Positions 1,949-64,000 of a stretch of 64,000 bases of DNA are shown in pieces. Origin of the DNA: Cornus controversa (Eukaryota; Streptophyta; Magnoliopsida; Cornales; Cornaceae). The notes beneath the pieces are model-generated. The model saw only the letters and a program-made list of their open reading frames with translations, did not search any database and was not told the DNA's origin. The stretch is from contig CM048853.1 in the NCBI GenBank assembly GCA_026545225.1, forward strand, positions 17,176,755 through 17,240,754, in the 5' to 3' direction. Every line of letters begins with the position of its first letter. The stretch's first letter is position 1. A program made the position numbers and the translations under genes.

Positions 1949-4788
1949 TGATAGGCGTTGAATATTACGCATTCTAGCCTCTTAACTTATGTATTTTATT
2001 CTCTTAGTGATAGATTATTTTGTTATTGTAAGGACCGAAATAATTTTGACCGGTCCCGGATGATTTTTGGACCGAATTGATTTTTTTTGAACAAATTAAA
2101 TTCGGTAAGGCGTTATATATATATACATATAGAATTATATATATATAAAGAGATGGAGAAGATTTTGTACGTGGAATTGTAGTCATGCCGGAGGAGGCGT
2201 GTATATATATATATATGGATATATTTATATTAAATTATAAATATATCTATTGAGTACATGCGTTGTTATATATACACATAAAAGTGTGTATATGTGTGGG
2301 CATATATATAATATGTGTATTAGATGCCCATGTGATACAAATATATATATATATATATTATGTATTATAAATATATGTGGCTGTAAGTGGTGGACAAAAG
2401 TGTGTGGACCAAAAGAAAGGAAGAAGAAAAGAGACCAAAAGTGGTCTCGGCTGGCAGATAGAAAAAGAAGAAAGAAAAGAAAAGAAGAAAAGAAGAAAGA
2501 AAAGGAAAAAGAAAAAGGAGAGAGGAAATGAGATCGGGAAGAGAGAGAAAGAGAACCCGAGAAGAGTGAGATCAGGGGAGAGAGACGACTGAGAGGGGCC
2601 TGCTGCCGGGGGAGGCCGCCACGATTCGCGGTGGTCCGGGCTTGCACGGCTCGACGCCCTTAGGAGCTGGGTCTCTCGACGGCCAGCCACGGGTGATGGT
2701 AGCGGCAGCGGCAGTGGGAGTTCGACTGGGGTTTGTGGGTCTGTTCACGGCAGTCGCTGGCCGTGATGGTGTCGATGAGTGGTTGTGTGGTGGCTGCCAT
2801 GGTGGTCGTGTTCAGCAGTGGCTTGGGCTGTCCGTTCAACGGCTTCGGGTGGTCCGACCATGGGGGTTCAATTTTGACTCCTTTGTTCTCGGCTTGGGTT
2901 GGCTTCAGATGGTTCTAACAAGGAATTTGCGAACCGTTTGGCTGGGTTTTCAAAGTGGTCCATGGTGGTTCGTAGTGTTGGTTCTGGCAGAGTTTCGGAA
3001 TTTGGGTTATGATTCGGCTGGTACATCATGGTTGTGGGTTATTTTGGTGGCAGCACGTGTGGCTTACGGTTGTGAAATGGCTGGTGGGGAAAACCCGGAT
3101 AGAAGAGCTTGCGGCTGTTGACTGGGTGGTGAAGATGGTGGTTCGGCCATAAATGATTGTGCATTTCTTATGGAGTTTCAATAGGCACAAAATGGACAAT
3201 GGGCTGCCTATTTACATGGTTTTGATTGGAGGATTTCCTGGGTTGAATTTAGTGCAAGTGTATATACTGGAGTGTGTGTGTTCAACAAATTCATATATGG
3301 GTTGGGTTGGACATGATAGTGAGCTGAAATTGGTTATTTGGGTTAATTTCGATGTGGGCTGAAATTAGTTACAGGCTTGATGGGTCTGGTTCATGGAGCT
3401 TAGTTGTTCCATGGTAGTTGCTTGGTATGGTTGACATATGATTTGAATTTGAGGATTAACTGGGTGAATTTTGATTCGGCCTTCTTGTAGTGGTGATACA
3501 TAAGTACATATATATGGATGATGGTTTGTGCATTGGGCTTAGGCCTTGAGTTTGTGTTGGGTTTCCAATGGAACTAGAAGTGGGCTGGAATTAGTCCAAT
3601 GGATTTGCTCGTGTGGACTTCGACGCAGGACTGGATCGAACTTGGAAACAGGCTGATTTGCAGGCACGGACCGGTTGGGAGCGGGACCTAAGGCAAGTTG
3701 ATTCTTGCCTCTCTCTCGTATGTATATTTTATTTACGTTGAGTAATTTACATATGTCTTAACTTGATCATATGTGTTATGTGTATATACATGTATATATA
3801 GGTGCTTATATATATATGTGGGTATAGGTGGATGTTGTACATACATGGGATGTGAGAGGATATATATATGCGTGTGTATATATATATGTATGTGTGGGTT
3901 TGGGAAGCAATAACATGTTAGACTTATCACCTATTTGCATTGGGAGATGCATGTATGTATATATTAAAGTCTACGAAAAGTATGCTAAATAATATCTGTT
4001 TAGCTATGTGTTGTCTTGTATGCATATGTGGTTCTTATGCATGATGTTCAGTATATATATATATATGTGAATATATATATGGTTGCAGTGACAGAAATAC
4101 ATGCTAAGTATTAATATAACTTTTGACGTGCATTTGTAAAGCATGATTACGATGTGCTAGGTGTTCTATATGTTCTTAATACATATATGGTGATGGAATA
4201 TATATGTGTGTGTTTATATATATATTATATTGTGATTGGAATGCATGTTGATCATTTGTAGTGAATACATGCATTGGCTGTGAGCATGATTATGTTTATG
4301 CTAGTATATATATGCATATGTGACTATATGCTGGATGTGACATATACGTGTTTATATATGAGAACGTGAGTATGAAATGCATGCTAGCTTTATTTATATA
4401 TCGAATGTATGCAGTGGTTGTAGCATGATGAAAACGTGCTAAAGTTGAGATATTTTGCATATGTGAGGTGTTATACACGTCTTGGAACATGTATGTGCTA
4501 TATGTGTTGGAATGTGATGAAAAGCATGCTAAATACTTCTTTTTAGTATTCATAGGCATGAGTTGATGCATGAAAATATTATGCTATGTATATATGCATA
4601 CATATTGCATATATGGGAGGGAAATGACACATACGTGGTTATATGTGGGTTCATATAGAGAAAAATGCATGCTATGTACTTATATACTAGTTGGTGCATT
4701 GGGATAGCATAAAATTGAATGATTGGTTACGTATGCATCCACATTGCATATATGGGAGGTTGCAAAAAAATTAACGCAAAAAGAGGTG

Positions 4789-5192
4789 CACGGGACTTCG
4801 GAGTGGTCCAACCGTGTCACAAGAAGTGGTATAACTATCCACTACGTATGGCCCTCGGAGTGGACCCGCCATACAAAGGCTTTATGCGTAGAATCAGAGT
4901 ATGTCCAACATTTGTGAGCTTCAGAGTTGCCCCCTCACAATTTGGCAAACCAATATATTGCCATTGGAGTGTGTCCAACAAGTATGGCCCTCGGAGTGGA
5001 CCCGCCATACTCAGGCGAAATGCCTGGAATTCAGAGTATGTCCAACGAATGTGAGCCTCAGAGCTATCCCCTCACATAATGGCAATCCTATACATTGCCA
5101 GGGTAGAATGACCTTTCGGAGTGGTCCAGGTCATAGGATGGTTATCGGAGTTGTCCTAGGTCACATGATCCTCGGAGCGGGCCAATCATGTG
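4789..5192. repeat. Hairpin array with constant centre and variable paired arms (A1)
   Basis: Paired arms flank a centre of the type ccTCGGAGTGGtCC, 13-18 nt long. They are CACGG 4789-4793/4812-4816; GTATGGC 4846-4852/4868-4874; TTGTGAG 4912-4918/4934-4940; GTATGGC 4982-4988/5004-5010; ATGTGAG 5049-5055/5071-5077; ATGACCT 5108-5114/5128-5134; TAGGA 5134-5138/5154-5158; CACATGAT 5162-5169/5185-5192. In each case the right arm is the reverse complement of the left. Confidence 0.9.
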
Positions 5193-5949
5193 GGGTATCG
5201 GATGAGGACCGAGAGCGAGAGTATGTGTAAGCTTTGATGCTTGTATTATGTATCGGATTATGACCGAAAAAGGTGAAAATACCTTTATGCTTATGTGTTT
5301 ATCTGTTAAGCATATTTTTTTGTTTAAATGCATCTATATTGCATTTGAGGTGAGCTACTTGACGAGTAGGAGATGTGGTAGTTGATTTACATTGTTTATG
5401 TAAATGTGTTGACATATATGTTCTATATACATATTGGTGCTGGATGTGTACTGCTTTCAAGCATGTTGAAATGATTTCTAAAATCATGTGTAATGGATTT
5501 TGTATGTTCATATGTTCTAGAGTAGCCATATACATCATTGGTTTAGCATGCTAGGTGGGCCATGGTCTTAAATATTGTGATATATTTAAGTACATGTATA
5601 TTTTTTAAGAATATGTGAGGATCGACCTGCTACAGCGGTGATAGTATGGTTCTACATACCTTGTTGGGCCTTTGAGCTCACCCCCTCCCAGGTTTTGCAG
5701 GTATTGCTGGTTTTGGAGTTAGTTAGGGGACTGACAGCACCGGTTGCAGAAGTAGTATCTAGATTCCTTAGAATCTAATGTATGTCCAGGATAGTGGATA
5801 GATAGATTCTTTATATTTGGATTAAATGTATAAAGCGATTTATATTGATTCAGTTCCTTCAATTGTATTTTATTCATGTGATGTATGTATATAATACGGA
5901 CATTCAAGGACTGAGACATGTATTTTTGATTATATTATGCATGTTGTAG

Positions 5950-6090
5950 AAATGCTGGGGGGACACGTGCCCAGAAGTGTCCATTTTTATTGTTTAGATA
6001 TAAATGCTGGGGGGACATGTGCCCAGAAGTGTCCATTTTTATTGTTTAGATATAAATGCTGGGGGGACACGTGCCCAGAAGTGTCCATTT
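5950..6090 (+). repeat. Three tandem 52 bp repeats near the end of A1
   Basis: Units begin AAATGCTGGGGGGACA at 5950, 6002 and 6054. Each holds GGACAC(or AT)..GTGTCC as a short dyad around GTGCCCAGAA. A2 (52036-52125) and A3 (56260-56350, reversed) have two units each. Confidence 0.9.
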
Positions 6091-7717
6091 GAATTGTAAA
6101 GCAGGTATAACATGCCAGGAGCTGATTATTTAAAATGGGTCATGCCCAAATTTCATAAAAATAATAGGAAATTGAGGGTGTATGATCAGGTGAAGGTTAT
6201 ATCGTGAGGGTAATCTCACGGGGTTCACACCTCGGTTTTCGGGCCTCGGGAATCGGGGCGTGACAATTATTTTACTTCATTTTAGTGTTTTCTGTATTTT
6301 CAGGGCCTTAATGATTATTTCAGTTAAAACCAAGCTTTTGGGCTTTTAAAGAAGACATCCAAGATGGTTAGATGAAGCCTACATCAAAAAGGAATCATTC
6401 AACTACTTATTTTAACTCAAATCAGCCCAAGAAAGAGGTTCAAGAGAATTACAGCTGCTTAAGAAGGTTTCGGGCCTGAAGCCCAAATCTGCGCATAATA
6501 CAGTCTTAATCCTGTTTTGGAAAACGGACTAGAAGTCTTATTTTCGAGCCTCAAATCGACATTATTTTCACGTAAGGTTGAACGAAATTTGATTCTGCAC
6601 ACTTTTGTATTTCACAAAAATTCCATAAATCAGACTTCTAGTGGGTCAAAAGTTGGGCCGAAGTCAGCTGAAAAAACCCACCTGATTAGTGCTGCGGGAA
6701 ACCCTAATTTATTCCTAATTGGATTAGGACTTTAGTGTATTCTCTTGGGAAATAAAGTAAAGACTTAGAGGCTGAATTGAGGAGAGAACAAGGAGATTAA
6801 CAGAGAGATTGGAGAGTCTAAGAGGGCTGGGAAGAGAACAGAAACATATTTGTAAAGCCATTGGAGAACGAAGTCATACGCATAATTCATAAAGATGAGG
6901 TCTTCTTCCTCAACAGTTGAAGCTTCTTCTTCTACCATGAGCGGCTAGTTCATCCACTAGGGTTTTGATGTAACCCTAACAAAGCATCAATGGTTTGATT
7001 GTTTTAATTATTGGGGACCTTTATATACATGCATAGATTGTGTAATTCAGAGGATTCTTATTATAGAATTGAGCAATAAAAGTCTTGTAAATTCAGTTTC
7101 AATGATTTCTTATCTTGTCTTAGATATTTAGTTGTTCTTATTGAACTCAATCTCTCTTGTTTTCTGTGATCATGAGAGAGATTATTACACAATGGTAATC
7201 ACTGAATATATTGTTAAGAGCTTTGATGGATTATGCCTAGAGAAGATGAACCATACTGCACCCTAGATTAGAGTAGTTAGGCAGATGGCCCATGCCAATC
7301 GAAGATAGTCCATGGCTTAGCCTTAATCATATGTTATCTTCTTGACGGATGAAGGTGAGCTTATAGCCACCAACACCACTTATGCATGATGTAATTCCCC
7401 TATAGTTGATTCAATTGACCATTGATTGTGGAGTTAGTGGTGAAGTCAAGCACCCTAGATTTCTCTCATATTATCTTCACTATCTTGTTTACTTTGATTT
7501 ATTTTATTTTATCTTTTTATTTAGTTTAAAAATCAGAATTCTTTTCTTATAAATTTAATTAGAATTAATTCCGTATTCCAACTCATCAGACCATAATCCC
7601 TGAGGTACGATACCCCTTTCGATAGCCTTATTCTGCAAGGAATTCGTTCTATTGCGAAGCGTGAAAAATTTTAATTGATATACTTTTTGAGTCACACTTA
7701 CACACGAATCAATTTTT

Positions 7718-7856: not shown

Positions 7857-9488
7857 ATGCAAGGTCATCGTTCTGTAGCTGATCCTTTGATACCTCTTGA
7901 TCCTGAGCCTGAACGTACTCTTAGACAACAGAGGAACATCCCAGTTGATACCATTGTGCAAGAGGAAGAATTACTTGAAGACATGGCAGAAGAGAGGAAT
8001 AACAACCTTATTCCTAATGCTGATGGAGAAATAGCTAGATTACTTAGGGACTACTATGTTCCTGAGACATATACCTCACCAGCAGGTTTTCAACTGCCCA
8101 ATGTCACAGCACAAAATTATGAGATCAAGTCCAGCATTATTCAGATGCTACCATCTTATTTTGGACTGACTCAAGAAGACCCTTACAAGCATCTGGATGA
8201 CTTCATTGAAGTGTGCTCAACTATAAAAATTCACAACTTCTCTGAAGATGCTTTCAGAATGAGGCTTTTTCCATTCTCTCTGAAAGACAAAGCAAAGTAT
8301 TGGTTCAATTCTCTACCGGCTCATTCTATCACGACTTGGACTCAGATGCAACATGAGTTTCTCAAGAAGTATTTTCCAATAGGGAAGACCAATCAGTTCA
8401 GACGTGCTATCACTGGTTTCTCCCAACATGAGGGGGAACAATTTTATGAGACATGGGAAAGATTCAAGGACCTTCTTAGGAAGTGTCCCCATCATCAAGT
8501 TCCTAAGTGGCAACTAGTGCAGAGTTTTCATGAAGGGCTGACAGAAGCCAACAGATAGATGGTTGATGCGTCGTGTGGAGGTACTTTTATGTTGAAGAGT
8601 GAAGAAGAGGCATGGACCTTATTTGAAAATCTTAGTGACAACTCTTTACAACATGTGTCCTCTACTCGTTCTAGCAGACCTGCCACTACAAGGAAGACTG
8701 ATGGGATTTTTGAGGTTGGTGCTTTAGAAGCTATGCCAACCGACATTGATTTAATTGCAAAGAAGGTAGCAGCAATTATGGTTGCCAATCAAACTCCTTC
8801 TACTTCAAATTCTTCATTGTTAGGCCCTTGTGAATTTTGCTCTAGTCCTATGCATAATGTGAGAAATTGTCCTTTAGTGGGGCAATTTTCTGAGATTCAA
8901 CATGAGCAAGTTCAAGCTACATTCAGTGGACCAATGAATCCTCCACGCGGTAATACTTACAATCCCACATGGAGGAATCATCCTAATTTCTCTTACAGTA
9001 ATCAAGGGGCAGCAATGCAACCATCATATCAACCTAGGACTTTTGTGCCTCAACAACAATATCAAACACAAAGTCCTATGGCCCAAAGAATTTTTGCTAT
9101 TGAAGACAAGCTGACACTTACCTTGTCTAAATTTGATAAGCTTGATTCTCTTATCGAGACAGTGCAAGCTACTGTAGCAACAGTACAATCTATAGTTCAG
9201 CTAGTGCACTCGCATTCTCAATCCATTGCCAAACTGGAATCTCAGTTTGGACAGCTTGCTACTTCATTGAGTAGAAGAGAAGAAGGGAAGCTCCCTAGTC
9301 AACCAATTGTTAATCCTAGAGGGATGCAAGCTTCCACAAGCAACTCACACCATGAGCAAGTCCAAGCTATTACCACTTTGAGAAATGGGAAAATAATTGA
9401 CAATAAGGTGGGTGAGAAGAAAGAAGAAGAAAAAGTGACCATAAGTCCAAATGCTGAAATTCCTTATGAGCCCAAGGCTCCCTTCTGA
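7857..9488 (+). pseudogene. gag: Athila gag (capsid/nucleocapsid), with in-frame stop
   Basis: Gag packages element RNA in virus-like particles. The frame opens at an ATG at 7857, about 145 bp after the LTR. It runs through the retrotransposon gag core (residues ~95-230, with DPYKHLDDF, RLFPFSL and KAKYWFNSLP). A TAG at 8556 interrupts it, then the frame continues unbroken to a TGA at 9486. A CCHC zinc knuckle (C-X2-C-X4-H-X4-C) is encoded at 8829-8870. A Gln-rich stretch and a coiled region with repeated HSQSIAKLESQ-type heptads follow. The TAG replaces what reads as a CAG in context. The same frame continues into the protease region after the TGA and a TAA near 9520, so gag and pol were one ORF, as is usual for Athila. 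Not functional as it stands. Confidence 0.88.
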
Positions 9489-19496: not shown

Positions 19497-19911
19497 TTGC
19501 AAGCAATGCATATATATATAAGAATGCATTAACACATATCATGCCTCACAATTTGAAATGAAAGTATTATCACACACTTGTTTCTCTCTCGGACTCAACC
19601 CGGTACCCTAGCATGATTATTGACCAACCATGCGACTTGGGACATTTCCCACACAAATTTTGAAATTTACATCATCAAGAACAATGATCCTACTAGGTAA
19701 TAAAACTGTTTCAGTACGTACCACTAAGAACATCAGTCCTACCAGGTGATGAGATCATTTCAATATGCACCACCGAGAACATTGGTCCTACCAGGTGATG
19801 AGATAATTTTTGGAATGCACCACTAAGAACATTGGTCCTACAAAGTGACAAGATATTTTTGGAATGCACCACCGAGAACATCGATCCTACCAAGTGATGA
19901 GACCCTTTCAA

Positions 19912-23897: not shown

Positions 23898-23929
23898 AGG
23901 AATTTCATCCTTGAAATTTGAAACATACC

Positions 23930-30477: not shown

Positions 30478-32923
30478 TGTCATGCCCTGAAATTCGAGTC
30501 ATTAGAATCCAGCAGTGACATCCGTCCATTACACCCTAATAGACTATTTCAACACCTCAAATACCGCGGAAGCATACCTCACATGTACGCACGTATGTAG
30601 GTGCAATGCAGACCTAACCAACCCCAATGGGCCCCACACGTACTCCCATACATCAGTCTATCTGGCACCTTTTATCCATTGATTACGATGTATCGTAATC
30701 ATGGTTACGATGCATCAAAATTAGGATGCATCGAGCATGTATCGTTTCACATTGTTAAGCTCTCAAAACTTTTGATTTCAAATTATCTGTAGAAATTACG
30801 ATGTATCGTCTTGTCCATTATGATGCATCGCCCCATCGTAACGAGGATTATGATGTATCGTAACCCCTCGACTAATACTTCTGCAGAAAATGCTACAGAC
30901 TTGCAATTGGTACCTTTGGTACTCAAAATCCATTCTATCATCCTAAGTCCATCCACACAACATTAAAATCATAAACGAAAGGTACTACCATCATACACAA
31001 GTCCTAAATCATGCAATTGGTCAAAATCATGCATCCATCCAAGCCTCTGTCATCACTACATACATTTTTATATTCATCTATCTACCTCATTATATACATA
31101 GTTGAGTCCAAATGTTTCTTACATTAACATCACATGCTCAAGTCCGTAGTCATTATATGAATTATATGCATATAGCCCAAAAGAGCATTATAATTCATCC
31201 ATGATTGCAATTAAAGTGTAAGTCAACATGCCACAAGTCGGCATAGATATCCATATACAAAAATATCCAAAAGAAAGCTATAAGCTAGAAAGAGTTCCAC
31301 TTGGATGCTTAAGTCTCATCCGTCATCGGAGCCTTATCTGTAAAATGTTTGGGGGAAGAAAGAGGGTGAGCAACTTAACGGCTCAGTAGAAATACTCTAA
31401 CCCACCTAGGCATCAACTCGACACCGACCTACATGAATGTATGTCGCTACACTACATGCCACATCCAACAATCACATGTCCATTCTAAGCAATGCAAGTT
31501 AAGGATAATCGCATTAAATCACATATCATGCTTAGCAATTTAAAACACGTAAGCAACAAGATATGCATATTCTCTCACTCTCGGCCCTAATTCAATACTC
31601 GAACATGATTGGTCCACTTCGAGGATCATGTGACCTTAAACACCTCCGATAACCCCTATGTGGTTTGGACAACTCCAAAACATCACACATCATTAACAAT
31701 ACGTCAATTTGCCATAATGTAAGCAAACAATTCCAAAACTCACTAGCTATGGACATACTCTTATTCTAGGCCTTAGTTTTGGTATGATGGGGCTTCTCCG
31801 AAAGGTCATACCGTCATGGACTATTGTACCACTCTTTTAGCATGGTTGGACCACTCTGAAGTCCCGTGCACCTCCCTTGAACCATTTCCCACAACCTCTT
31901 ATATATGCAAATTGGACATATACTACACTTAGCATATTGTATTCATGCTCTTCAATTGCTCATCAATGCTATAATCATGACAAGCATGCATTCTCACTTC
32001 TCTATCAATATATACTCACATATATATTCAACTCATGCATAAAAACCACATATACATAGTACATAGCACATAATTAGTCATGCTACCAAATTATGCACAT
32101 TACACATACACATTCCCCACATTGTACATATCATCTTATACCTTATTTTTTTTGTACACAAGAATCAAGGAGGGAGGAGAAAATATTAAATCCCAACCAC
32201 TCTCACCACTCACATACATGTAAACTAATCTTCCACCTTTCCAACCCATCCGAAACCGTAGAATCAACACTTAGAAAAGAAGGAGAACCCCTACCTCAAG
32301 TTTAAAGACCTTCCAAGCAATCTCCAAGATTTCTCCCAAGTTCTATCTTGCCAAAACTTGAGTTTTTTTGGTTCAAACCGAAGCCCTAGCTGCCCTCTAC
32401 GTGTTATCCTTCTTTGGTGACTTCCGAATCTTACTCGAAGGCCTCCGAAATGAAGAGAGAATATTGCAAGATGAAGTGGGAGAGAAGAGGGATGTTCAGG
32501 CATGTGAGTTTCTATGACAGTTATGAGGGAATCTCAGCAACTTGGATATTTATATCCCACTAGGTGAAAAAAGACCAAAATTCCCTTAAGTCACTTAACG
32601 TACCCTCCCGACCTCCATTGTCGATTTCAAAAGCTCCTATGGCCTTAAAATAACTTCCTTAATTCTCTAAACATTTAGTTTGGTCTAAATCTAAAAATAA
32701 TTATTTTTCAAAAAATTCTCAGATTCTCAGACCCACCCGGACCGCATCCTGGGGCCCCCCGTTGACTGAAAAAGTCAAACTTCTCCAAATGTTCCCAGAA
32801 CCTCTATACCACTCTCAAACATGTTATCCACATGTAAAACATGTTAAACATCATTCAAAATGCATTTATGACAATTTTGAATAATAAAATAAAAATCGAC
32901 CAAAATTGGTGACGGCCTTTACA
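30478..32923 (-). mobile_element. Solo LTR B2 (LTR family B)
   Basis: Plus-strand ends TGTCATGCCC..GGCCTTTACA, target duplication ATAGA perfect (30473-30477 and 32924-32928). 2446 bp. It carries a palindrome cluster at 30681-30860 and the hairpin module (for example ACATGAT 31603-31609 with ATCATGT 31625-31631). No ORF of note. Confidence 0.9.
30681..30860. repeat. TTACGAT-gt-ATCGTAA palindromes in B2
   Basis: 30681-30700 is GATTACGAT-gt-ATCGTAATC, 9-base arms, perfect. Four or more partial copies follow, some with GATGCATCG centres. B1 has AATCTCGAT arms at the equivalent place. Confidence 0.9.
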
Positions 32924-36194: not shown

Positions 36195-39100
36195 TGTAGA
36201 GACCGGAACGAAGTTTGACCAATTTTTGAATTTTGCATCATTGATAGGCGTTGAATGTTATGCATTCTAGCCTCTTAACTTATGTATTTTTATTCTCTTA
36301 GTGATAGATTATTTTGTGATTTTACTTTGTTTTAGTGTTTTCTGTATTTTCAGGGCCTTAATGATTATTTCGGTTAAAACCAAGCTTTTGGGCTTTTAAA
36401 GAAGACATCCAAGATGGTTAGAGGAAGCCTACATCAAAGGGAACCATTCAACCATTTATTTTAACTCAAATCAGCACAAGAAAGAGGTCCAAAAGAATTA
36501 CAACTGCTTAAGAAGGTTTCGAGCCTGAAGCCCAAATCTGCACATAATACAGTCTTAATCCCGTTTTGAAAAATGGACCAGAAGTCTTATTTTCGAGCCT
36601 CAAATCGACATTATTTTTGTGCAAGATTGAACAAAATTTGATTCTGCACACTTTTGTATTTCACGAAAATTCTGTAAATCGAACTTCTAGTGGGTCAAAA
36701 GTTGGGCCGAAGTCAGCAGGAAAAACCCACCTGATTAGTGCTGCTGGAAACCCTAATTTATTCCTAATTGGATTAGGACTTTGGTGTATTCTCTTGGGAA
36801 AGAAAGTGAAGAATAAGAGGTTGAGTTTGAGGGGGGAGATTAGAGGGAGATTGGAGAGTCTGAGAGGGCTGAGAAGAGAATAGAAACATATTTGTAGAGC
36901 CATTGGAGAACGAAGTCATACGCATAATTCATGAAGATGGCGCCTTCTTCCTCAACAGTTGAAGCTTTTTCTTCTACCATGAGCGGCTAGTTCATCCACT
37001 AGGGTTCTGATGTAGTCCTAACAAAGCATCAATGGTTTGATTATTTTAATTATTGGGGACCTTTATATACATGCATAGATTGTGTAATTCAGAGGATTCT
37101 TATTATAGAATTGAGCAATAAAAGTCTTGTAAATTCAATCTCAATGATTTCTTATCTTGTCTTAGATATTTAGTTGTTGTTATTGAACTCAATCTCTCTT
37201 GTTTTCTGTGATCATGAGAGCGATTATTACACAATGGTAATCACTGAATATATTTTTAAGAGCTTTGATGGATTATGCCTAGAGAAGATGAACCATACTG
37301 CACCCTAGATTAGAGTAGTTAGGCAGATGGCCCATGCCAATCGAAGATAGTCCATGGCTTAGCCTTAATCATATGTTAGCTTCTTGACGGATGAAGGTGA
37401 GCTTGTAGCCACCGACACCACTTATGCATAATGTAATTCCCTATAGTTGATTCAATTGACCATTGATTGTGGAGTTTGTGGTGAAGTCAAACACCCTAGA
37501 TTTCTCTCATATTATCTTCACTATCTGTTTACTTTGATTTATTTTATTTTACTTTTTAATTAATTTAGTTTAAAAATTAGAATTCTTTTCTTATAAATTT
37601 AATTAGAATTAATTCCGTATTCCAACTCATCAGACCATAATCCCTGAGGTACGATACCCCTTTCGATAGCCCTATTCTGCAAGGAATTCGTACTATTGCG
37701 AAGTGTGAAAATTTTTAATTGATATACTTTTTGAGTCACACTCACACATGAATCAATCATTTTTGCTATAAATATGTTTTGAATGATGTTATGGATGTTT
37801 CAAGAGTGAAAAACATGTTTGAAAATTTGATTAGTGGTTTTTGAAAGTTTTCATAAAATTTGTACAAAGTTAAAATTTTCGAGTCAACGGGACCTGGGAA
37901 GCGGGTCGGGTGGGCCCAGAAATCTAAAAAAATTTGTACAAATGAAATGTTTAAGAAGTTAAGGAAGTGATTTCAAGGCCATAGGAGCTTTCAAAATTAA
38001 AAACAGAGGTAGAGAGGGTACGTTAAGTGGCCCGGTGGCATTTTAGTTATTTCGTGCCATGAATATGATAAATATAAAAAATTTCATAGATATTTCATAT
38101 CTTTCTTGTCCCAATAGCCGGCCATGGCTCTTCTTCTCTCCCTCTTCTTCCCTCTTCCTTCTATCTTCATTTCGAGGCCTTCGGGCATTATTCAAATGTT
38201 GCTGAAGAAGGACAACACGTAGAGCTTGGTTAGGGCTTTGGTTTGAACTAAACAAACTTGAGTTTTGGTAAGGTTAAACTCGGTGAAAATCTTGGAGATT
38301 GCTTAGAAATCCTTTATTTTAGAGGTAGGGGTGCTCTCTCTCTCGTAGTCATTAATTCTAGGATTTCGGGTGGTTTGGAGAGGTGTAGTATGTATGAGAG
38401 ACATGGGGAGGGGCTGTGGTTTCTAGTTTCCTCTCTTTCCTTATGGTTCTACATGCTAGTATAATTCATGTTGATATATATCTATATATATATGATGTGT
38501 GGGCTGAATATATGCATTATGAGAGCATGTTTAGCTTTGATATATATTATATGTATATGTAAGTTATGTGCATAGTGGTGTCATATATGTGCTTATATGT
38601 TGATTATGGAGGTATAGGAATATTGTATGCATGCTAGACTATATAGAAAGTATGTGCATTAGACAAGCATGAATAATATAACTTAGGTTGTGAATTGTTT
38701 GCATGTGAGAGTAAAATGCATGTTTTGTGATATATATGCGGCTATATGTTGTATATGAGTGTGGAATGCATGCTAGACTAACATTTCAATGATATATATT
38801 AAAAAGCATGAAAATGACATGTTTTGTGGTATAGGTGCCTAAGGAGCATTATATATAGTCAAAGTGTTAAAAAGGGAGAAATGCATGGTAGTCGAAAATG
38901 CCCAACCATGTGTTTGAAGTGGAGAAATATTTGGTCACTTATGTGTTCTAATATGCCTAACCATGTGTTTGAAATGGAGAAATGGAGTTGACCAATTGAG
39001 TCTATGTATCGGATTATGACTGAAAATGTGAGTATATATTTGGTTGCTTATGTGTTCTAACCATTAAGCATGATATATGTGTTGAATGCAATCATTCATG

Positions 39101-48013: not shown

Positions 48014-51000
48014 TGTAAGGACCGGAATTTATTTTGACCGGTTCTGGGTGAATTTGGACCGGATTAAATTTTTTTGGATTAATTAAAATTCCAGAAAGGG
48101 TAGGGACATTTATGTTTCCATCCAAGTGGAAGGTGTGTGTATATGTATATATATATATATATATAGTGCTTATATTTATATTAAATTATAAATATAGGGT
48201 GGGCTCATGTGCAATTAAAGGTAAGTGTGGAGAAATACATAGAATACATGTATTTTGTGTATGGTGTGGTATATTATATATATATATATATAATATATAT
48301 GTAATATGTGGACCAAAATAAAGAGAAGGAGGAGACCAAGTATGGTCTCGGCTGGGAAAGAAAGAAAAGAAGAAAGAAAAAAAGAAAGAAAAAGAAAAGA
48401 AAAGAAAAGAAGAAAAGAAAGAAAAAGAAAAGAAAAGAAAAGAAGAAAAGAAGGAAAAGAAAAAGAAAAGAAGAGAGAGAAGGAGAAGTCGGGGAGAGAG
48501 AGGAAGAGAAACCGAGAAGAGAGAGAGATCGGGGGAGACCGAGAGGAGCCGCCGATCCCGGCGACCAGCTATACGCGGTGGCTGAGGCGGTCGTGGTGGT
48601 GTCACCGATGGGCCATGTCGGTGGTGAATGGCTCGGTTCGGCTGGCCGTTCGCGAAGGGGGTTTCGCGGCTGGAGCTTGTTGGTTCCGGCGAGTGTTGGT
48701 GACGGCGTGGGTTCGCTGGCGGTGGGCCGGTGACGGCAGCTCGCGGTGGTTGCAGGTGGGTTCGGTGGTGCGAGCTGCCTGGTTCGCAGCTTCAGTTGGT
48801 GGTGATTCGAGCGAGGGGGCTGTCGTGGGTTTGGGTTCACGGCGGTGGCTTCGGACGATGGTATGAGGCTGTTTGGGGCTTGTGACAGAGGTGGCCCATG
48901 GTGGCTCGTGGTGTTTGGCTTCGGCTGTTAGGACCTGTCAGGTCGTTGGGTTCAGTTGAAATTTGGATCATGGCTTGCCGCGGGTGCACAGGTGGCAGCG
49001 ACTGGCTGTGAGGGTCGTTGGTGGTGGGCTCTTCTATGTGGGTTCAATTTCAAGGTTTTCATGGCGGATTGGGTCCGACTATGGGTCTTCACCGAAGTGG
49101 TGGGTGATGGTGGTTTCGGCCGTGGAGCTGGGTTTTCACGATTGTTTGGGCAGCTTGTTGGGGTGGTTCGGCTTAGCCGTGAGGTGTCCGGGAAAGGTTT
49201 GTTTGGGTGGTCTCAGTGTGGCCATTATAGGCTGGCTGTGTGGACTGGTTTTGGATTGTTTGGCAGCAAGGTGATGGCTCAGTTTGGGGCTATTTGGGTT
49301 CTTTGCTGGTAGGTTGTATTTAGAAGGGAATCTAGCTGGGTTTTCTTGATTGCTTACTTCGTTTGGACAGCCGTGGTGGTTGGTTTGTGGGTGCTTACTG
49401 CGGGTTCGGTTTGGACAGCTAGTAGTGGTCACGATTAGTGGTGGTTTGGGGCCAGAATGGTTACCTTGTGGCGTTGGGCCTTGACGGCCATAGTGGGGGA
49501 GCCTGACTTAGTTGTCCATAGTGGAAGCAACCATGGTGAAGGTTGAAGGTGGTTCCAAATTGGGTTGATTCACTTTATTTGGGTTGGACCGGAAATGAAT
49601 AAGGAAACGAAGTGGCCCGATGGATTGTTCGGGTGGGTTTTGACACAGGACTGGACCGGACCAGACTTGGTAGAGGCCGATTTGCAGGCACGGGCTGGTT
49701 GAGAGCTGGACCTAAGGCAAGTTGATTCTTGCCTCTATCTCTTACGTAGATTTTATTTACGTTAAGTAATTTACATATGTCTTAATTTGATCATATGTGG
49801 TATGTGTATATACATATATATGTAGGCGCTTATATATATATGTGTATAGGGAATGTGGTACATACATGGGATGTGAGAGGATATACATATGTGTGTGTGT
49901 ATATATATATGTATGTGCGGGTTTAGGAAGCGATAACATGTTAGATTTATCACCTAATTGCATTGTGATATGCATGTATGTATAGATTAAAGTCTATGAA
50001 GAGTATGCTAAATAATACATGTTTAGCTATATGTTGTCTTGTATGCATATGTGGCTTTTATGCACGAGGTTCAGTATATATATAGGTGATTATATATATG
50101 GTTGCAACGGTAGAAATGCATGCTAAGTATGAATTTAACTTTTGACGAGCATTTGAAAAGCATGAAATGTGCTAACTATTTTATATGTTCTTGATACATA
50201 TGTGGGTGACGTAATATACATATGTGTGTATATGTGTTGTGATTGGAATGCATGTTAGCTACTTGTAGTGAATACATGTATTGAATGAGAGCATGACTAT
50301 ATTTATGCTAGTGTAAGTGCATATGTGATTTATATGCATGATTTGACATGTACGTGTTTACATGTAGGGTTACGTGAATGAAATGCATGCTATCTGTTTA
50401 TAGAAAATGTATGCATTGGTTATAGCATGATAAGAATATGCTAAGTTGGAATTGTTTGCATATGTGAGGTGTTATGCAAGTATTTGAACATATATGTGCT
50501 ATATGTGTTGGAATGTGATGAAAAGCATGCTAAATACTTCTTTTTAGTATTCATAAGCATGGGTTGAAGCAAGAAAACATTATGCTATGTGTATATGCAT
50601 CCATATTGCATATATGGGGGGGAAATGACACATGTGGTTATATGTGGGTTTATGTGGAGATGAAATGCATGCTATGTTCTTTTAACTAGCTTAGGCATTG
50701 TGAGGCATGAACATTGAAATGTTTGGTTATTATATGTTCGAAATGCATATATGGTGCTGTTGTGAGGAAACGGAGAAGTGTGGTTGAATAACCTAGAGTA
50801 GGTCAATACTCGGTTAGGGTTGTGGTCATAAAGTGGGCAAATCATCCAGAGTAGGTCAATACTCGGTCACGATGAGAGCATTGGAGCGGTAACGTCATCT
50901 TGGAGTAGGTAAATACTCGATGACGGTGGTCTCCACACCTTGGAGTAGGTAAATACTCGGTGTGGATTCCAAAAAGATGCCCAATCACCTTGGAGTAGGT

Positions 51001-52295
51001 AAATACTCGGTGATTGTGGTTTATTCACCTTGGAGTATGTGATGACTCGGTGACAAACTATTTAACCGCCTTAGAGTATGTGATGACTCAGTGAGGAAAA
51101 CTATCTAACCACCTTGGAGTATGTGATGACTCGGTGATGAATTCCAAAATCAACTAATCACCTTGGAGTATGTGATGACTCGATGGCAGTGTTGGAATTG
51201 TGTGGGAGGCGTCTCGGTCACATGATTGGTTAAGAATCATGTTAGGATATTGAGTTGAGTCCGGGAGAGGGACAAGTGTGTGAACTTGCTTGCATTATCT
51301 ATTGTGAAGCATGCTTCATGTTTAACGCATTCTTATATATGCGTTGTTTGTGACAGAACATGATATATGTTGGATATCTATTGCTTTTGAGCATGTTATA
51401 TGATTTAAATGCATTTTTATTACATTTGAGATATGCTACTTGACGAGTAGGAGATGTGATAGTTGATTTACATTGTTTATGTAAATGTGTTAACATATAT
51501 GTTCTATATACATATTAGTGCCTGATGTTTACTGCTTTCAAGCATGTTGAGAATGATTTCTAAAATCATGTGTGGCGGATTTCGTATGGTCATATGTGCT
51601 AGAGTAGCCATATACATCATTGGTTCATGCATGCTAGGTAGAGCATGGTCTTAAATATTATGATATATTTAAGTGCATAAGTATATTTTTGAGAATATGT
51701 GAGGATCGACCTGCTGCTGCAGTGATAGTATGGTTCTACATACCTTGTTGGGCCTTTGAGCTCACCCCCTCCCAGGTTTTGCAGGTGTTGCTGGTTTTGG
51801 AGTCAGTTGGGGAAACTAATAGCACCAGTTACAGAGGTAGTAATTAGATTCCTTAGAATCTAATTTATGTTCAGGATATTGGATAGATAGATGTATTACA
51901 TTTGGATTAAATGTATGAGGCGATTACGTAGATTCAGTTCTTTCAGTTGTATTTATTCATGTGATGTATGTATTTAATACGGACATTCAAGGACTGAGGC
52001 ATGTATATTTATGATTGTTTATGCATGTTGTAGAAATATTGGGGGGACACGGGCCCAGAAGTGTCCATATTTATTGTTAGATATAAATGCTGGGGGGACA
52101 CGTGCCCAGAAGTGTCCATATAAATTGTAAAGCAGGTGTAATATGCCAGGAGCTGATTATTTAGAATGGGTCATGCCCGATTTTCGTAAAAATAGTAGGA
52201 AATTGAATTGTATGATCAGGTGGAGGTTATGTCGTGAGGGTGATCTCACGGGGTTCACACCTCGGTTTCTGGGCCTCGGGAATCGGTGCGTCACA
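48014..52295 (+). mobile_element. Solo LTR A2 (4.2 kb LTR family A)
   Basis: TGTAAGGACCGG..AATCGGTGCGTCACA with perfect target duplication TGGTC (48009-48013, 52296-52300). 4282 bp. Same plan as A1: TA zone, purine tract 48315-48540, GC-rich block to about 49450, hairpin array 50789-51190, 52 bp repeats 52036-52125. No internal coding region. Confidence 0.93.
50789..51190. repeat. Hairpin array with variable paired arms (A2)
   Basis: About nine units of 40-50 bp share a centre ttGGAGTAGGTAAATACTC or ttGGAGTATGTGATGACTC. Arms: TAACC 50789-50793/50812-50816; CGTCATC 50893-50899/50919-50925; CCACACC 50933-50939/50959-50965; CAATCACC 50982-50989/51009-51016; TCACC 51025-51029/51049-51053. The remaining units pair in 4 bases or fewer. 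Confidence 0.92.
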
Positions 52296-54466: not shown

Positions 54467-57400
54467 TGTAGACACCAGAACCAAATTTGATCGATTTTTG
54501 AAATTTTCATCATTTTCACCACAAATGTGTTTTAAATGATGTTATGAATGTTTCGAGAGTGAAAAACATATTCGAAAAGTTCTTTTAAGGTTTTGGAAAG
54601 TTTTGAAAACATTTGGAGAAGTTTGACTTTTTGGGGCAACAAGGCCCCAAGAAGCGGTCCGATGGGCCCCCTGAAAAATTTTCAAAGAAAAATTTTTTTT
54701 GGTTGTGGATCAAATGAAATATTTAAAGAGTTAAGAAAGTAATTTCAAGACCGTAGGAACTTTCAAAATCGAAAATAGATGTCGAGAGGTTACATTAAGT
54801 GATTCGGGCGTTTCAATCATTTCGCACCCCAAGAAGAGATAAATATCTTGGATGGGCTGAGATATTTTATTTTCCAACAATCTCTCTCTCTCTCTCTAAC
54901 TATCCCACTTCATCTCTCTCTCTTCTCTTTACATTTTGGAGGTGCTAGGTTGTGATTTGGAAGTTATCGAAGAAGGGTAGATTTTTCCTCGGGCTAAGGA
55001 CATCGGTTTGAACCAAACAAAGTTGATTTTTGGTAAGGTAGAAAGGGCTGAAATTTTGGAACTTAGCTTCCAAGATTGAGATTCGAGGTAGGGTTGTGAA
55101 ATTCTTCTTTGCTCTGATTCTATAGGTCACATACTTGTGACATGAAACGTTTCTTTGACAATTTTAGGAATATATGATTTTTGCATATATGTGTTGAAAG
55201 TCTAACATTCTTTATTTAGAAATTATAAATGCATACGAGTGGTGGAAGTTTATGAATGCAAATTTATGAGTTCTGATCATTTAAGGGGCTTTGTAGAATT
55301 TGATTTCAAATAATGAATTAAGGATGAATAACGTTTTCTAAAAAAAATATTGGTTGTAATTCCAATGAAATGGATGATTTTCATTGTGACAAGCTTGAGG
55401 TGAAGGTGTGTGCATAAACTTGACATAGGTTATGCATTTGGTGAGAATTGTGAGAATCATGAATTTTATGCATTTATGTGATAAGTGTACATTATGTGGC
55501 AATGTGAAATTATGTGAGAAAGTCACATTTTTTGACCATATGTGAGAATTAAGAAGGGCCCGGAGCCCTAAGGTGCAAGACCCAAAAATTGGCCAAGCGA
55601 GTGTCGCTTCCGTTGGGTTAATTACCCGAAAAGCGTAAGCAAAGTTTATGGTTTCAAAGAAACCTTACTATGGATTGTGACAAGCGAAGTCCTCAATTGA
55701 GTTAAATTTCGATACATGTAGAGTGAGTTTACTTGTGAGTTGTGAATTCATTCAAGTTGTTATATATTAAAATATAAAGCATCACTCATGATTTTCAAAA
55801 CTTGAATATTTTTAGGGTGAAAAGCATGGATAATTGTTATGTAGACATATAGAGATTTCATTATGCATTCATACATGACTGCTTGAGTTAAGGTAGAGTC
55901 GGTGGATCATTCCTACTGGGCATAGTTGTATGCTCACCCCGCTCCCCTAAACTATTTTGCAAGTAAGGCATGAATGACGGAAAGGACTTGATTAGTCACT
56001 TGGAGTTCATAGGAGCATTTTTGGGATATTTTGATATATCATGTGTGGACTATGTATTTGGCTATCCATGTTGACATGTGGCATGTCACGCCCCGATTCC
56101 CGAGGCCCGAAAACCGAGGTGTGAACTCTGTGAGATCACCCTCACGACATAACCATCACCCGATCATGCAACCTCAATTTTCTATTATTTTTACGAAAAT
56201 CGGGCATGACCCATTCTAAATAATCAGCCCCTGGTATGATATACCTGCTTTACAATTTATATGGACACTTCTGGGCACGTGTCCCCCCAGCATTTATATC
56301 TAAACAATAAAAATGGACACTTCTGGGCCCGTGTCCCCCCAATATTTCTACAACATGCATAATTCAATCATAAATATACATGCCTCAGTCCTTGAATGTC
56401 CGTATTGAATACATACATCACATGAATAAATACAATTGAAGGAACTGAATCGATATAATCACTTTATACATTTAATCCAAATGTAAAGCATCTATCTATC
56501 CACTACTCTGGACATAAATTAGATTCTAAGGAATCTAACTACTACCTCTGCAACTGGTGCTATCAGTTTCCCCAACTGACTCCTTAATCGGCAATACTTG
56601 CAAAATCTGGGAGGGGGTGAGCTCAAAGGCCCAACAAGGTATGTAGAACCATACTATCACCGCTGCAGCAGGTCGATCCTCACATATTCTCAAAAATATA
56701 CGTGCACTTAAATATATCACAATATTTAAGACCATGCTCTACCTAGCATGCATGAATCAATGATGTATGTGGCTACTCTAGCACATATGAACATGCAAAA
56801 TCCGCCACACATGATTTTAGAAATCATTCTCAACATGCTTGAAAGCAGTAAACATTCAGCACCAATATGTATATAGAACATATATATCAACACATTTACA
56901 TAAACAATGTAAATCAACTACCACGTCTCCTACTTAACAAATAGCACATCACAAATGCAATAAAGATGCATTTGAACAGGAAAACATGCTTAACAGATAA
57001 ACACATAAGCATAAAGGTATTTTTCACCTTCCACGGTCATAATCCGATACATAAGACAAGCATCAAAGCTTGCACATACTCTCACTCTCGGTCCTCATCC
57101 GATACCCCACATGATTGGCCCGCTCCGAGGATCATGTGACCTAGGAAAACTCCGATAACCAACCTATGACCTGGACCACTCCGAAAGGTCATCCTACTCT
57201 GGCAATGTATAGGATTGCCGTTATGTGAGGGGACAGCATCCGAGGCTCACATTCATTGGACATACTCCGATTCCCAGGCTTTAAGCCTTAGCATGGAGCC
57301 ATACTTATTGGACATACTCCGATGGCAATATATTGGTTTGTCAAATTGTGAGGGGGCAACTCCGAAGCTCACAAACGTTGGACATACTCCGATTCTAGGC

Positions 57401-60400
57401 ATAAAGCCTTCGCATGGCGGGTCCACTCCGAGGGCCATACGCAGTGGATAGTTATACCACTTCTCGTGACACGGTTGGACCACTCCGAAGTCCCGTGCAC
57501 CTCTTTTTGCGTTAATTTTCCCGCAACCTCCCATATATGCAATATGGATGCATACGTATCCAAGCATTTCATTTTATGCTATCCCAACGCACCAGCTAGT
57601 ATATAAGTACGTAGCATGCATTTTCCTCTACATAAACCCACATATAACCACATATGTGTCATTTCCCTCCTATACATGCAATATGGATGCATATATACAT
57701 AGCATAATACTTTCATGCCTTAACCTATGCTTATGAATACTAAAAAGAAGTACATAGCATATTTTTCTCCACATTCCAACACATATAGCACATATATGTT
57801 CAAATACTTGCATAACACCTCACATATGCAAACAATTCCAACTTAGCATATTTTTATCATGCTATAACCAATGCATACATTTTCTATAAACAGATAGCAT
57901 GCATTTCATTCACGTAACCCTACATGTAAACACGTACATGTCAAATCATGCATATAAATCACATATGCACACACACTAGCATAAATACACTCATGCTCTC
58001 ATTCAACACCTGTATTCACTACAAGTAGCTAACATGCATTCCAATCACAACACATATACTCACATATGTATATTACGTCACCCACACATGTATCAAGAAC
58101 ATATAAAACAGTTAGCACATTTCATGCTTTTCAAATGCTCGCCAAAAATCATATTCAAATTAGCATGCATTTCTACCACTGCAACTATATATATAATCAC
58201 CTATATACATATACTGAACTTCACGCATAAGAGCCACATCTGCATACAATACAACACATAGCTAAACATGCATTATTTAGCATACTCTTCATAGACTTGA
58301 ATCTATACATACATGCATATCACAATGCAATAGGCGATAAATTTAACATGTTATCGCTCCCCAAACCGCACATACATATATATACACACACGCATATGTA
58401 TATCCTCTCACATCCCATGTATGCACCACATTCCCTATACACATATATATATATAAACGCCTACATATATATGTATATACACATACCACATATGATTAAA
58501 TTGAGACATATGTAAATTACTTAACATACATAAAATGTACGTAAGAGATAGAGGCAAGAATCAACTTGCCTTAGGTCCAGCTCTCAACCCATCTGTGCCT
58601 GTAAAGCGGTCCTCTTCCAAGTCCGGTCCAGTCCTGTGTCAAAACCCACCCAACTGATCCAACTGAACCTTCGTTTAAATTGACCCAATTCCAAGGTCTA
58701 ATTCATTACTCTAAACTTGCTTCATAAACCATGCTTAGCCCACTTGCCCAATTTAATCAACTTGAGGCCCAATTCACATCAACCAAACCTAATATGGAAG
58801 CCCAACCCAGCTGAATTATCTACTGTCATGGGGCCAATTCCATTGATACCCAAACCGTGAGAAATCTCCACATGGCTGCCAAGGCCCCATAGCCGAACTC
58901 CATATACTCACTATCAACTATGATAGCCCATCAACCATGGTCACCCTCACCATCATCAACCCCAAGCAAAAACCATGCAAACCAGCCCATTGAAGCTCCA
59001 TGAACAATTCACAGCCATTAATGGCTGACCCAAACATTATGAATCACCAAACACCCGCCATCCCCTTGGTGGTGCACCAGCCCCTCTACGGCTAGGGCCA
59101 TCACCATGAGCCATACAAGCTCAACCCGCACTGAGCTTTCTCAGCACCACCATCATCGGCCACCACCAACAAGCCAAAATAGTCAACCGGACCACCATTT
59201 CCACAGCCAAATAGACCCACAACCGTGACCACTACGGGCTGTCCAAATCGAACCTCCATCGACCACCAACAGCCACCATGAACCGCCATTCAGCCGAACC
59301 CAGTCTCACACCTCCAGTCGTCTTCCCCGACCAACCATCACCTCTCCATGATCGGACCACCATGAACCCAACCCAACTGAGTCAAACACGACCCAGTCGT
59401 GCTCAGCCGAACCGCCGAGCGACACCACCGCGAGCCGCCGTCACCAGCCCACCGCCAGCGAACCCACGAACCCGCCGAGCTAAACCCCGGCCGAACAGCG
59501 CCTCACCGGCCGTGAATCCCCTGCCGGACGAGCGCACCAACTGCCGAAAGGACCCTCTTCGCGAACGGCTCCATCGCACCGAGCCACCCCGCGTCACCGG
59601 CACACCACCTCAACCCCTTCGGCCACCGCAAACCACCGACAGCCAAGCCACCGCCGGCGCTGAGATCGGCGGCCCCTCCTTCCCCGAGTTTCTCTCTCCC
59701 CGATCTCACTCGGTCTCTCTTTCCCTCTCTCCCCGACTTCTCCTTCTCTCTCCTCTTTTCTTTCTTCTTTTCTTTTTCCTTTTCTTTCTTTTTTTCTTTT
59801 CTTTCTTCTTTTCTTTTCTCGGCTGAAGCTTCTCTCAAATATACACCACACATTTTTCTTATTCTCCTCCACACACAAATATATACATAACATATGCACA
59901 TATACTTGTAATCTTGCATGTGCACCCACACTCCTTCATAATTGCATATAAGCCCACACATATACACACTTTTATGTGTATATATAATAATGCATGTACT
60001 CAATAAATATATTTATAATTTAATATAAATATATTTCATATAAATATATATATTTCCATATATATATCTATATATGCATCCTCCGTCCAATCTATATATA
60101 TATATATATATATCCACATCTTTCCGAATTTAATTTATTCGAAAAAATAAATCCGGTCAAAATTCATCCGGAACCGGTCAAAATAATTCCGGTCCTTACA
60201 TGGCATGTGGATTATGTTGAGTTATAGTTACATTCACATTGTATGTAACTTGTATATTCATTTGGACCTTGTTTGTATAACCAATGAAGTTGGTGTATGG
60301 ATATTGTGAATGTATGCAATGATATATTCATTTTGAAAGAAATGTACGAGGATGGTAAGATAATAATGATTCAAATATGTGATTTGGGATATTTGTGCAA

Positions 60401-61379: not shown

Positions 61380-62377
61380 GGAGTTGATCAACACTTTCGT
61401 GTCATTGGAGTTTTCCAACACCACATGATCGTCAGAGTTGACCAATCATACATATGTATCAGATTATGACCGAAGAAGATGTAAATATCTTGATGCTTAT
61501 GTGTTTTAACTATTAAGCATGCTATATGATTTAAATACATATTTGTTGAATTGCATTTTTGAAGTGTTGAACATGAGAACATTGATATATGTCATATAGT
61601 GTGGCAACATTATAGTTGCATATCATGTAGGTTGGTGTCGAGTCGATGCCTAGGTGGGTTGGGACATTCTTACTAGGCATAGTTATATACTCGCCCCTCT
61701 CCCCTGAACTTTTTACTAGTAAGGCGCCAATGATGGATTGTGCATTAAAGTCCGAATAGAGTTCCTTTTGTCATTTTGGATGTATTTTTGAATATCTTGT
61801 ATATGGCTATCCATGCTGGCTTATGGCATATTAATTTCTTATAGATGTAGTCATAATTGAATTGCTAGTGTTTTTGGACAATATACATGTAATTCATATA
61901 ATGACTATGAACTTGGAGGACCACATTTATAAGATGTATGATTAGATTCACAGTATGGATGGACCTTATGTTTATGTATTGAGAAATTTATTTCATGGAA
62001 TGTATAGGAATTACCATTTCAAAGCAAAGTAATACGAATGATTCTAGGATGTTAGAATGAGAATTGAGTACAAATGCGTCAAGTGTGATGAATCAAAAAA
62101 TACTGCAAAGAGACAATTTCGATCGTGTGAAATGCCTTTTTTGCACAATCGAAATGCCTTCGATTGTGCGAAATGGCATCGAGAATTTTGATAGAAGAGG
62201 GTCCAATTTCTAGTGGGATTTCGATTATATTTTGCATGAACTTCAATTGAGCGAAGCATTTTGATCGTGCAAAAATTAGATTTTGCATGATCGATTATCT
62301 TCAATTATGCGAAACTACAATTTCAATTGTGGGAAATTTGTATTCCACTCTATGTTTGTTATGCATGTATGGCTACG
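61380..62377 (+). mobile_element. B-type LTR fragment B5
   Basis: It begins in the hairpin module (CATGATCG..CAATCATAC) and runs through the usual middle (CTAGGTGGGTTGGGACATTC) to the palindrome-like zone (AATTTCGATCGTGTGAAAT, TTCGATTGTGCGAAA near 62160). It is cut by B6 at 62378. The LTR start is missing. Confidence 0.7.
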
Positions 62378-64000
62378 TGTAGAAACCATGACCAATTTTG
62401 GACAATTTATATTTTTTGCATTATAATTGCCATAAATGCATTTTGACTGATGTTAAGCATGGTTTGATTGTGGAGAATATGTTTGGGAAGTTGTGTAGAG
62501 GTTTTGGTGAGTTTTTGGGATATTTGGAGAAGTTTAACTTTTTTGTCAAACGGGAGCCCGAGTGCGGTCCGGGTGGGTCTGGAAATTTGAAAAATTTTGG
62601 AAAATAATTATTTTTGGTTTTAAACCAAATGAAATTTTTAGAGAGTTAAGAAAGTGATTTCAAGGCCATAGGATCTTTCGAAATTGAAAACGAAGGTCGG
62701 GAGGGTACGTTAATTGGCCCGGGGGCATTTTAGTCATTTGCGCATCCTAAATATTTTAAATATTAAGGCTGAGAGATTCCAGCCATATCTCACAGCTGTT
62801 TCTCTCTTTAAACTCTCCCATATTAATCCCTTCACATTTTCTCTACATTTGGAGTGGCTTTGGCTTGGATTTGAGACCTGCCGAAGAAGGAAAGTGTATA
62901 AGGGATGGCTAGGGCTTCGATTTGAACCGAACAACCTCGCGTTTTGGAAATATCTTCCTTGGTGAGATTCTTGGAAGTTGCTTGAAAGTCATCCAACTTT
63001 GAGGTAGGGGTTCTCCTTCTTACTTAGTTGTCAATTCTAGGGTTTCGGGTGAAACGGTGAGAATGTGTATTGCATGAATGAGAGTGGTAAGAGGGGTAAG
63101 ATTAGGTGTTTTCTCCTTCCCTTGAGTCTCTCTATACAAATATGGTGTACCTTGTGATGTGTATAACATGAGGGGCAAGTATGTGAAAGCTTGAGAAAAT
63201 GAGAACATGTATGCTTATGTGCTTAATTTGATGTGCATATGTGACTATGTGCAATGTGAAACATATGTGATTGTGTGTTGATAATGTGATTTGAAATGCA
63301 TGCGAATTACTCATAGTAAGTGTATGCATTGGACAAAGTATGAATAATATGTGCTAAATTAAAATTTGTAGGCATATATAACTTATATACAAGACTTGAC
63401 ATATATGTGACTATATGTGTGTTTACGTGGAGGAAATGCATGTTAAGTACCTTTAGAACTAGCTTGTGCATTTGAGAAGCATGAAAATGATATGCTTGAC
63501 TTTATATACTCAAAATACATATATGGGGTAAATGTGAGGAGACGAGAAAAATGGACCGTGCATGGAATGTCAGAGAGGTCCAACCATGCTAAGTAGGGGC
63601 ATTCTTGTCCAATGAGGTATGACTATCGGAGTGGTCCCATCATACCAAGGCTAAGGCCTAGAATCAGATTAAATCCACTTTTGGTGAGTTGTCGGAGTTG
63701 TCCACTCACCTTGGGTCAAACCAAAATATTGCCAATGGAGTATGACATTGTCGGAGTTATCAATGTCATACAAATGAGTCAGAGGTGTCCTAGGTCACAT
63801 AATCTGTCGGAGCAATCCAAATCATGTTGGGGTATCAGAGTAGGACCGAGAGAGGAAAGACTATGGCCTTCCTTACATGATTTTTACTAAGCATGATATG
63901 TGTTTTAATGTATTCTTATATATGCATTGCTTATGTTTAAACTTGTGAAAGTTGAATGAGACATGTAATGTAGTAACATGCATTCATGTAGGTCGATGTC
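62378..64000 (+). mobile_element. B6: B-type LTR, 5' part, runs off the window
   Basis: Starts TGTAGAAACCATGACCAATTTTGG. It keeps the GAGGGTACGTTAATTGGCCC block seen in other B LTRs and a hairpin array at 63560-63770. It ends at the window edge in the CATGTAGGTCGATGTC region, so solo or full element cannot be told. Confidence 0.8.
63560..63770. repeat. Hairpin array with variable paired arms (B6)
   Basis: Arms around a tGTCGGAGTtGTCC-like centre: GCATGG 63560-63565/63584-63589; GGTATGA 63616-63622/63640-63646; GGTGAGT 63683-63689/63704-63710; TATGACATTG 63741-63750/63761-63770. All four pairs are perfect complements. Confidence 0.92.

Follow-up and report, generated by a model that had tools for sequence, protein, structure and literature searches.

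Several known systems resemble the hairpin rows described here in part. According to the portion of PMC7612645 considered here, the hepatitis B virus packaging signals comprise several hairpins whose loops share one short core-protein motif, RGAG. RNA structure serving dimerisation and packaging is expected close to the 5' end in the leaders of Ty3 (PMC11381356) and BARE (PMC3735527); the portions of these papers considered here describe no row of hairpins with like loops. Retroviral LTRs with a long R region and stem-loops have both sides of the stem conserved within R, and the corresponding portion of PMC3601003 mentions no tandem units and models no plant chromovirus LTRs. Moreover, matched multi-base changes in stems are described for hairpins maintained by template switching (portion of PMC8794818 considered here), a process that alone would leave loop conservation unexplained.

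The window analysed here is a stretch of 64,000 nucleotides of Cornus controversa (contig CM048853.1), and it contains rows of hairpins with a common loop and differing arms within LTRs (Table 1). To our knowledge, little is known of how plant Ty3-type elements signal packaging and dimerisation in cis. A literature search yielded no description of such hairpin arrays. The search for relatives elsewhere, with patterns and protein against viral contigs and with one pattern against genome contigs, gave no confirmed locus. As in hepatitis B virus, several hairpins share one short motif: RGAG was present in 21/24 loops of A1, A3, D31, E63 and G61 (F39 left out) and in 8.3% of 15-mers drawn at random from the window, where the loops share descent and do not amount to 21 independent events. 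Unlike the viral signals, the hairpins lie side by side in a plant retrotransposon LTR, their loops are longer, RGAG lies within the inner stem in B1, and binding is putative. The likeness may serve as an analogy for how the row works, not as a sign of kinship, and the match of four letters may be due to chance. Both the slow change of arms and loops and the length of the loops set the row apart from template-switch hairpins.

The hairpin row and the LTRs that carry it

The window contains three solo LTRs (A1, B1 and A3), each about 4.1-4.3 kb long, with TG...CA ends and a 5-bp target duplication that was exact in B1 and A3 and 4/5 in A1. A1 has no internal region and is nested inside another LTR element. 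The LTR of that element is formed by 1949-2026 and 6266-7714, and an uninterrupted copy of it lies at 15795-17312. An internal region was also absent from A3 and B1. A place of A1 among the Tekay (Del) chromoviruses, which would have a chromodomain pol beside the LTR and a primer-binding site immediately behind the 5' LTR, is putative. No primer-binding site was found at the ends of the solo LTRs in a search with primer-site patterns. D31, E63, F39 and G61 are older fragments of a related second LTR family. At 23900-24260 (-), an LTR of the D31/E63 family comes after a pol remnant, which we take to be chromoviral, and a purine tract; 0 Pfam hits were obtained on the 90 residues of the remnant tested.

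Other features of the window were also recorded. An Athila-type pol is present; the named proteins among the 120 matches listed came from flowering plants (Tanacetum, Pyrus and Malus among them), and JGI proteins among the matches listed reached 83% identity. The Rfam 15 search of the window gave one match, to snoR71 at 8395-8500 (-), inside a gag frame of the Athila-type element, and none above the gathering score in the array. A ribozyme (retrozyme) reading was rejected, the array being without an Rfam hit. At 5950-6097, A1 carries a 52-bp tandem repeat with GGACACGTGCCC in 2.8 copies, and fewer copies are present in B1 and A3.

Table 1. Positions of the hairpins, their host LTRs and related features in the window.
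Feature	Position	Strand	Description
Solo LTR A1	2027..6265	+	ends TGTAAGG...GTGACA; flanks GTTAT / ATTAT, 4/5 alike
TATA-like TATATG	4749..4754	+	39 nt upstream of hairpin 1 in A1
Hairpin 1	4788..4817	+	GCACGG / CCGTGT, loop GACTTCGGAGTGGTCCAA
Hairpin 2	4846..4874	+	GTATGGC / GCCATAC, loop CCTCGGAGTGGACCC
Hairpin 3	4912..4940	+	TTGTGAG / CTCACAA, loop CTTCAGAGTTGCCCC
Hairpin 4	4943..4963	+	TGGCAA / TTGCCA, core absent from loop
Hairpin 2'	4981..5011	+	AGTATGGC / GCCATACT, copy of hairpin 2
Hairpin 3'	5049..5077	+	ATGTGAG / CTCACAT, copy of hairpin 3, one compensated pair
Hairpin 4'	5080..5100	+	TGGCAAT / ATTGCCA, copy of hairpin 4
Hairpin 6	5108..5134	+	ATGACCT / AGGTCAT, loop TTCGGAGTGGTCC
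Hairpin 8	5162..5192	+	CACATGAT / ATCATGTG, loop CCTCGGAGCGGGCCA
Dyads without core	5286..5346	+	TATGCTTA / TAAGCATA and AAATGCA / TGCATTT
Array C19	19670..19899	-	five units of about 49 bp; arms e.g. CATCACC / GGTGGTG; inner stem AGGAC / GTTCT
D31 array	31602..31869	-	older LTR copy from another LTR family
Remnant F39	38883..38911	+	hairpin 1 arms GCATGG / CCATGT; loop without core
Solo LTR B1	48014..52295	+	flank TGGTC duplicated; array of nine other units, 50785-51189
Solo LTR A3	56084..60200	-	flank TGCCA duplicated; array 57498-57108; loop of hairpin 2' gone
Remnant G61	61402..61452	+	hairpin 8 plus trace of hairpin 6
E63 array	63560..63828	+	older LTR copy; truncated by window end
Second palindrome set	625-740, 813-928, 20289-20513, 39682-39721, 40067-40106, 61012-61051, 62116-62169

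The loop core TCGGAGTGGTCC occurred with at most 4 mismatches at nine sites within 4780-5215 of A1, and a perfect stem of 5-8 bp was located close to the loop at seven of them (arms CACGG, GTATGGC, TTGTGAG, AGTATGGC, ATGTGAG, ATGACCT and CACATGAT). The core sites 4964 and 5145 had no such stem in the tested geometry. The preliminary description had reported eight dyads at this place in A1 that share a loop type, with arms that are unrelated in sequence yet always complementary. The dyads were recovered there, seven of them with perfect stems, and "always" proved slightly too strong in view of the two sites without a stem. Site 5145 sits off-centre within AGGA (5135-5138)...TCCT (5154-5157), and this dyad may be the eighth of that count. 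Five arm sets, not seven, are unrelated, because a 137-bp tandem duplication at about 4846-5100 copied two hairpins, giving GTATGGC twice as well as the pair TTGTGAG/ATGTGAG; these five are the sets that the preliminary description listed by name. Between the halves of this duplication, the arms differ at 2/40 positions (one compensated pair), the loops at 7/39 and the linkers at 18/53. Dyads without the core also occur between and beyond the core hairpins, up to about 5346. A dyad homologous to hairpin 8 is present in A3, D31, E63, G61, B1, C19 and C24. The loop was also considered as a piece of a tRNA primer-binding site, and the shared TCRGAG was judged a likely chance match.

Pairing and covariation of the arms

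The stem score of the A1 arms with their own partners had a mean of 5.89 and that of swapped arms was 2.72; the former was reached in 0/10,000 permutations. In the same geometry, a score of at least 5 was obtained at 3.1% of 10,000 random window positions. In the other arrays, the permuted arms did as well in 2 (A3), 1 (E63) and 147 (D31) of 10,000 permutations. After alignment by the loop, the six A1 hairpins gave a covariation of 0.883 versus 0.312 (sd 0.075) for shuffled-arm controls, with 0/500 shuffles reaching the observed value, and slid alignments scored at most 0.200. Standard pairs made up 91.5% of this alignment, and both sides had changed in 7/8 pairs. Hence, the claim that pairing is kept while the arm sequence changes held for A1.

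A covariance model built from the six A1 hairpins had 21 matches in the window at E <=0.05, six of which were the training rows. Arrays A1, A3, D31, E63 and G61 contained 20 of the 21, and one partial match lay elsewhere (47148, -). For matches outside the training rows, taking base pairs into account raised the score above that of a sequence-only model by 12-17 bits at 63616, 31602, 57165 and 31781; the gain was 7 bits at 61422, 2 at 47148 and none at 31844. The lone partial match outside the LTR arrays (47148-47170, -) scored nearly as well by sequence alone.

The arms of six homologous hairpins were compared across up to eight copies. According to this table, which was aligned by hand with the register picked by eye and is therefore biased towards pairing, 203/233 cells were Watson-Crick, 10 were G·U, 10 were A·C and 10 were other. 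Hairpin 2' of A3 (loop deleted), hairpin 6 of D31 and G61 (unalignable arms) and the F39 and G61 hairpins apart from F39 hairpin 1 and G61 hairpin 8 were omitted from it. A double Watson-Crick change across copies was present in 7/42 pair columns. When whole arms were swapped among copies, the Watson-Crick count was matched in 0/5000 swaps and the count of compensated columns in 207/5000. At one pair of hairpin 1, A1 and A3 have C-G where E63 and F39 have T-A and D31 has C·A; copies also differ at the outer pair of hairpin 2, with C·A, C-G, A-T and G-C all present. Moreover, unguided RNAalifold on four arrays recovered hairpins 1, 2, 3, 6 and 8, with 13/79 pairs changed on both sides. Each hairpin keeps similar arms between copies with compensatory changes, and the arms differ among the hairpins of one array.

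Divergence of the arrays, strand and predicted transcript start

Between A1 and A3, with 15 columns deleted in A3 set aside, the arms diverged at 4/125 positions, the loops at 4/108 and the linkers at 21/157. Fisher tests gave 0.0003 for hairpins versus linkers and 0.003 for arms alone, and this contrast was equalled in 0/404 circular shifts of the mask. The flanks diverged by 15.7% upstream and 8.3% downstream. The contrast of arms with linkers was weaker with the older copies: p was 0.135 (A1) and 0.144 (A3) against D31, 0.025 (A1) and 0.019 (A3) against E63, and 0.032 between D31 and E63. Sense and antisense matches to the loop numbered 7:0 in A1, 6:0 in A3, 4:0 in D31, 6:1 in E63, 9:0 in B1 and 5:0 in C19.

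Selection and template switching at quasi-palindromes, which had been posed as rivals, predict different outcomes at this locus. Template switching copies one arm onto the other, so that matched arms would change together and be kept up by mutation without selection. The pairs are almost all Watson-Crick and strand-symmetric, which agrees with this process, and the part of PMC8794818 considered here presents it as able to make and repair stems. Such correction alone, however, would be expected to leave the arms at a near-neutral rate and the loop unprotected, whereas both changed more slowly than the linkers between A1 and A3. Template switching may also invert loops, and one antisense loop match, that in E63, was found over all arrays. 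Furthermore, the switches in that part of PMC8794818 were enriched at four-nucleotide loops, whereas most loops here measure 13-18 nt. Upkeep by mutation without selection is accordingly regarded as unlikely. The conservation of arms and loops while the linkers drift, together with the nearly constant loop orientation, makes selection a better account than template switching alone, mainly from the one copy pair A1-A3; with the older copies, the contrast on which this preference is founded is weak.

The TATA-like box begins 31-40 nt ahead of hairpin 1 in A1, A3, D31, E63 and F39, and it lies about equally far upstream of the first unit of B1. TATATA occurs within 1.1 kb just 3 times in D31 and 3 times in E63, but 29 times in A1, where the box proves little. 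A transcription start near 4778 is predicted in A1 from this box. If the box is used, transcription begins just before the array, and the array forms the start of R. Hence, the array may open the transcript. The single orientation of the loops suggests one acting strand.

Folded one at a time, the 13 hairpins ranged in minimum energy from -5.6 to -17.7 kcal/mol. For the whole arrays A1, A3, D31 and E63, folding was not better than in shuffled sequences (z -0.32, 0.44, -0.17 and -1.09), and B1 folded better (z -3.5 sense and -5.35 antisense). Global folding energy was thus set aside as a proof of structure, with support from B1 only. For the alignment of four copies, z was -4.92 (0/100) on the antisense strand versus -1.94 (2/100) on the sense strand; the weaker sense value reflects the abundance of G and T on that strand, shuffled versions of which fold well. 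In array A, 10 cells were G·U and 10 were A·C, and the distinct types numbered 7:9, indicating no preference for the sense strand. C19 alone leaned to the sense strand, with 57/60 cells paired including G·U and 16 G·U versus 3 A·C, where the cells are not independent.

The strand-symmetric pairing and the nearby TATA-like box would also agree with dyads that act as DNA near the transcription start, as palindromic promoter or silencing sites or as cruciforms. However, a DNA protein that reads sequence has no need for arms that vary by unit, and stems of 7-8 bp with loops of 13-18 nt make poor cruciforms; action at the DNA level also appears unlikely. Alternatively, the hairpins may matter while the element is reverse transcribed, both in the RNA of the R region and in the complementary first-strand cDNA, where they would aid strand transfer. 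Such a role would explain both why the loops have a single orientation and why G·U pairs are not in excess in array A, but it requires the predicted R-region position and fits poorly with the 16 G·U cells of C19, and we consider it rather improbable. Chance dyads and ordinary tandem repeats are a very improbable explanation. The 137-bp duplication does multiply two hairpins and other dyads are plentiful (190 in the whole window versus 37-60 in five shuffles), but this reading is refuted for A1 by the 0/10,000 permutations and 0/500 shuffles. The hairpin array is real and probably selected.

Putative role and exchange of the array

With moderate confidence, we propose that selection maintains the array as a set of hairpins acting single-stranded, most likely where the 5' leader (R) of a retrotransposon transcript begins, with the constant loop recognised and the arms serving for pairing only. 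The constant loop around TCRGAG would be what a partner recognises, and the arms would merely pair and display the loop, so that they could drift through compensated changes. Adjacent copies of the hairpin would create a multivalent site. The likeliest partner would be the Gag/nucleocapsid of the element itself, packaging or dimerising the RNA, and a host RNA-binding protein is a possible alternative. Array A resembles a packaging signal in having several stem-loops that share a loop motif and vary in their stems; this combination is weak in B1 and C19. Evidence against the proposal is given by hairpin 2' of A3, which has lost its loop, and by hairpin 1 of F39, the loop of which has neither the core nor RGAG. 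An array in which the arms have been replaced many times and the loop kept amounts to a natural mutational scan showing which letters matter.

Arrays of this architecture but with other loops occupy the matching LTR position, and the homologous hairpin 8 comes after them. This recurrence suggests that a hairpin cassette was exchanged between LTR families. B1 shares the upstream and downstream parts of its LTR with A1 and A3 and differs between them, at about 50755-51384, where nine units have a core RGAGT...ACTC plus outer stems. Full outer stems are present in only three of the nine units. Three adjacent units share identical 19-nt loops, and their arms are fully paired and very different (CGTCATC, TCCACACC and CAATCACC). 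Covariation was within the range of shuffles across the nine units of B1 (120/500) and among the five units of C19 (400/500). A wider proposal, which we find doubtful, is a modular RNA platform for Gag binding and selective packaging, in which tandem paralogous hairpins at the 5' end carry one recognised loop and freely drifting arms, the cassette is exchanged between LTR families, and the loop type can be switched (A, B and C) with the architecture retained. If this proposal were true, whether elements can use each other's particles may depend on their loop type.

B1 resembles a recombinant LTR, with sides like those of A1 and A3 and a middle (50755-51384) akin to 19514-19656 and 24264-24445. 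A second set of palindromes with short loops of the type ATTTCGAT..ATCGAAAT and changing arms (AATCTCGA/TCGAGATT and ATTTCGC/GCGAAAT) was also observed in the window.
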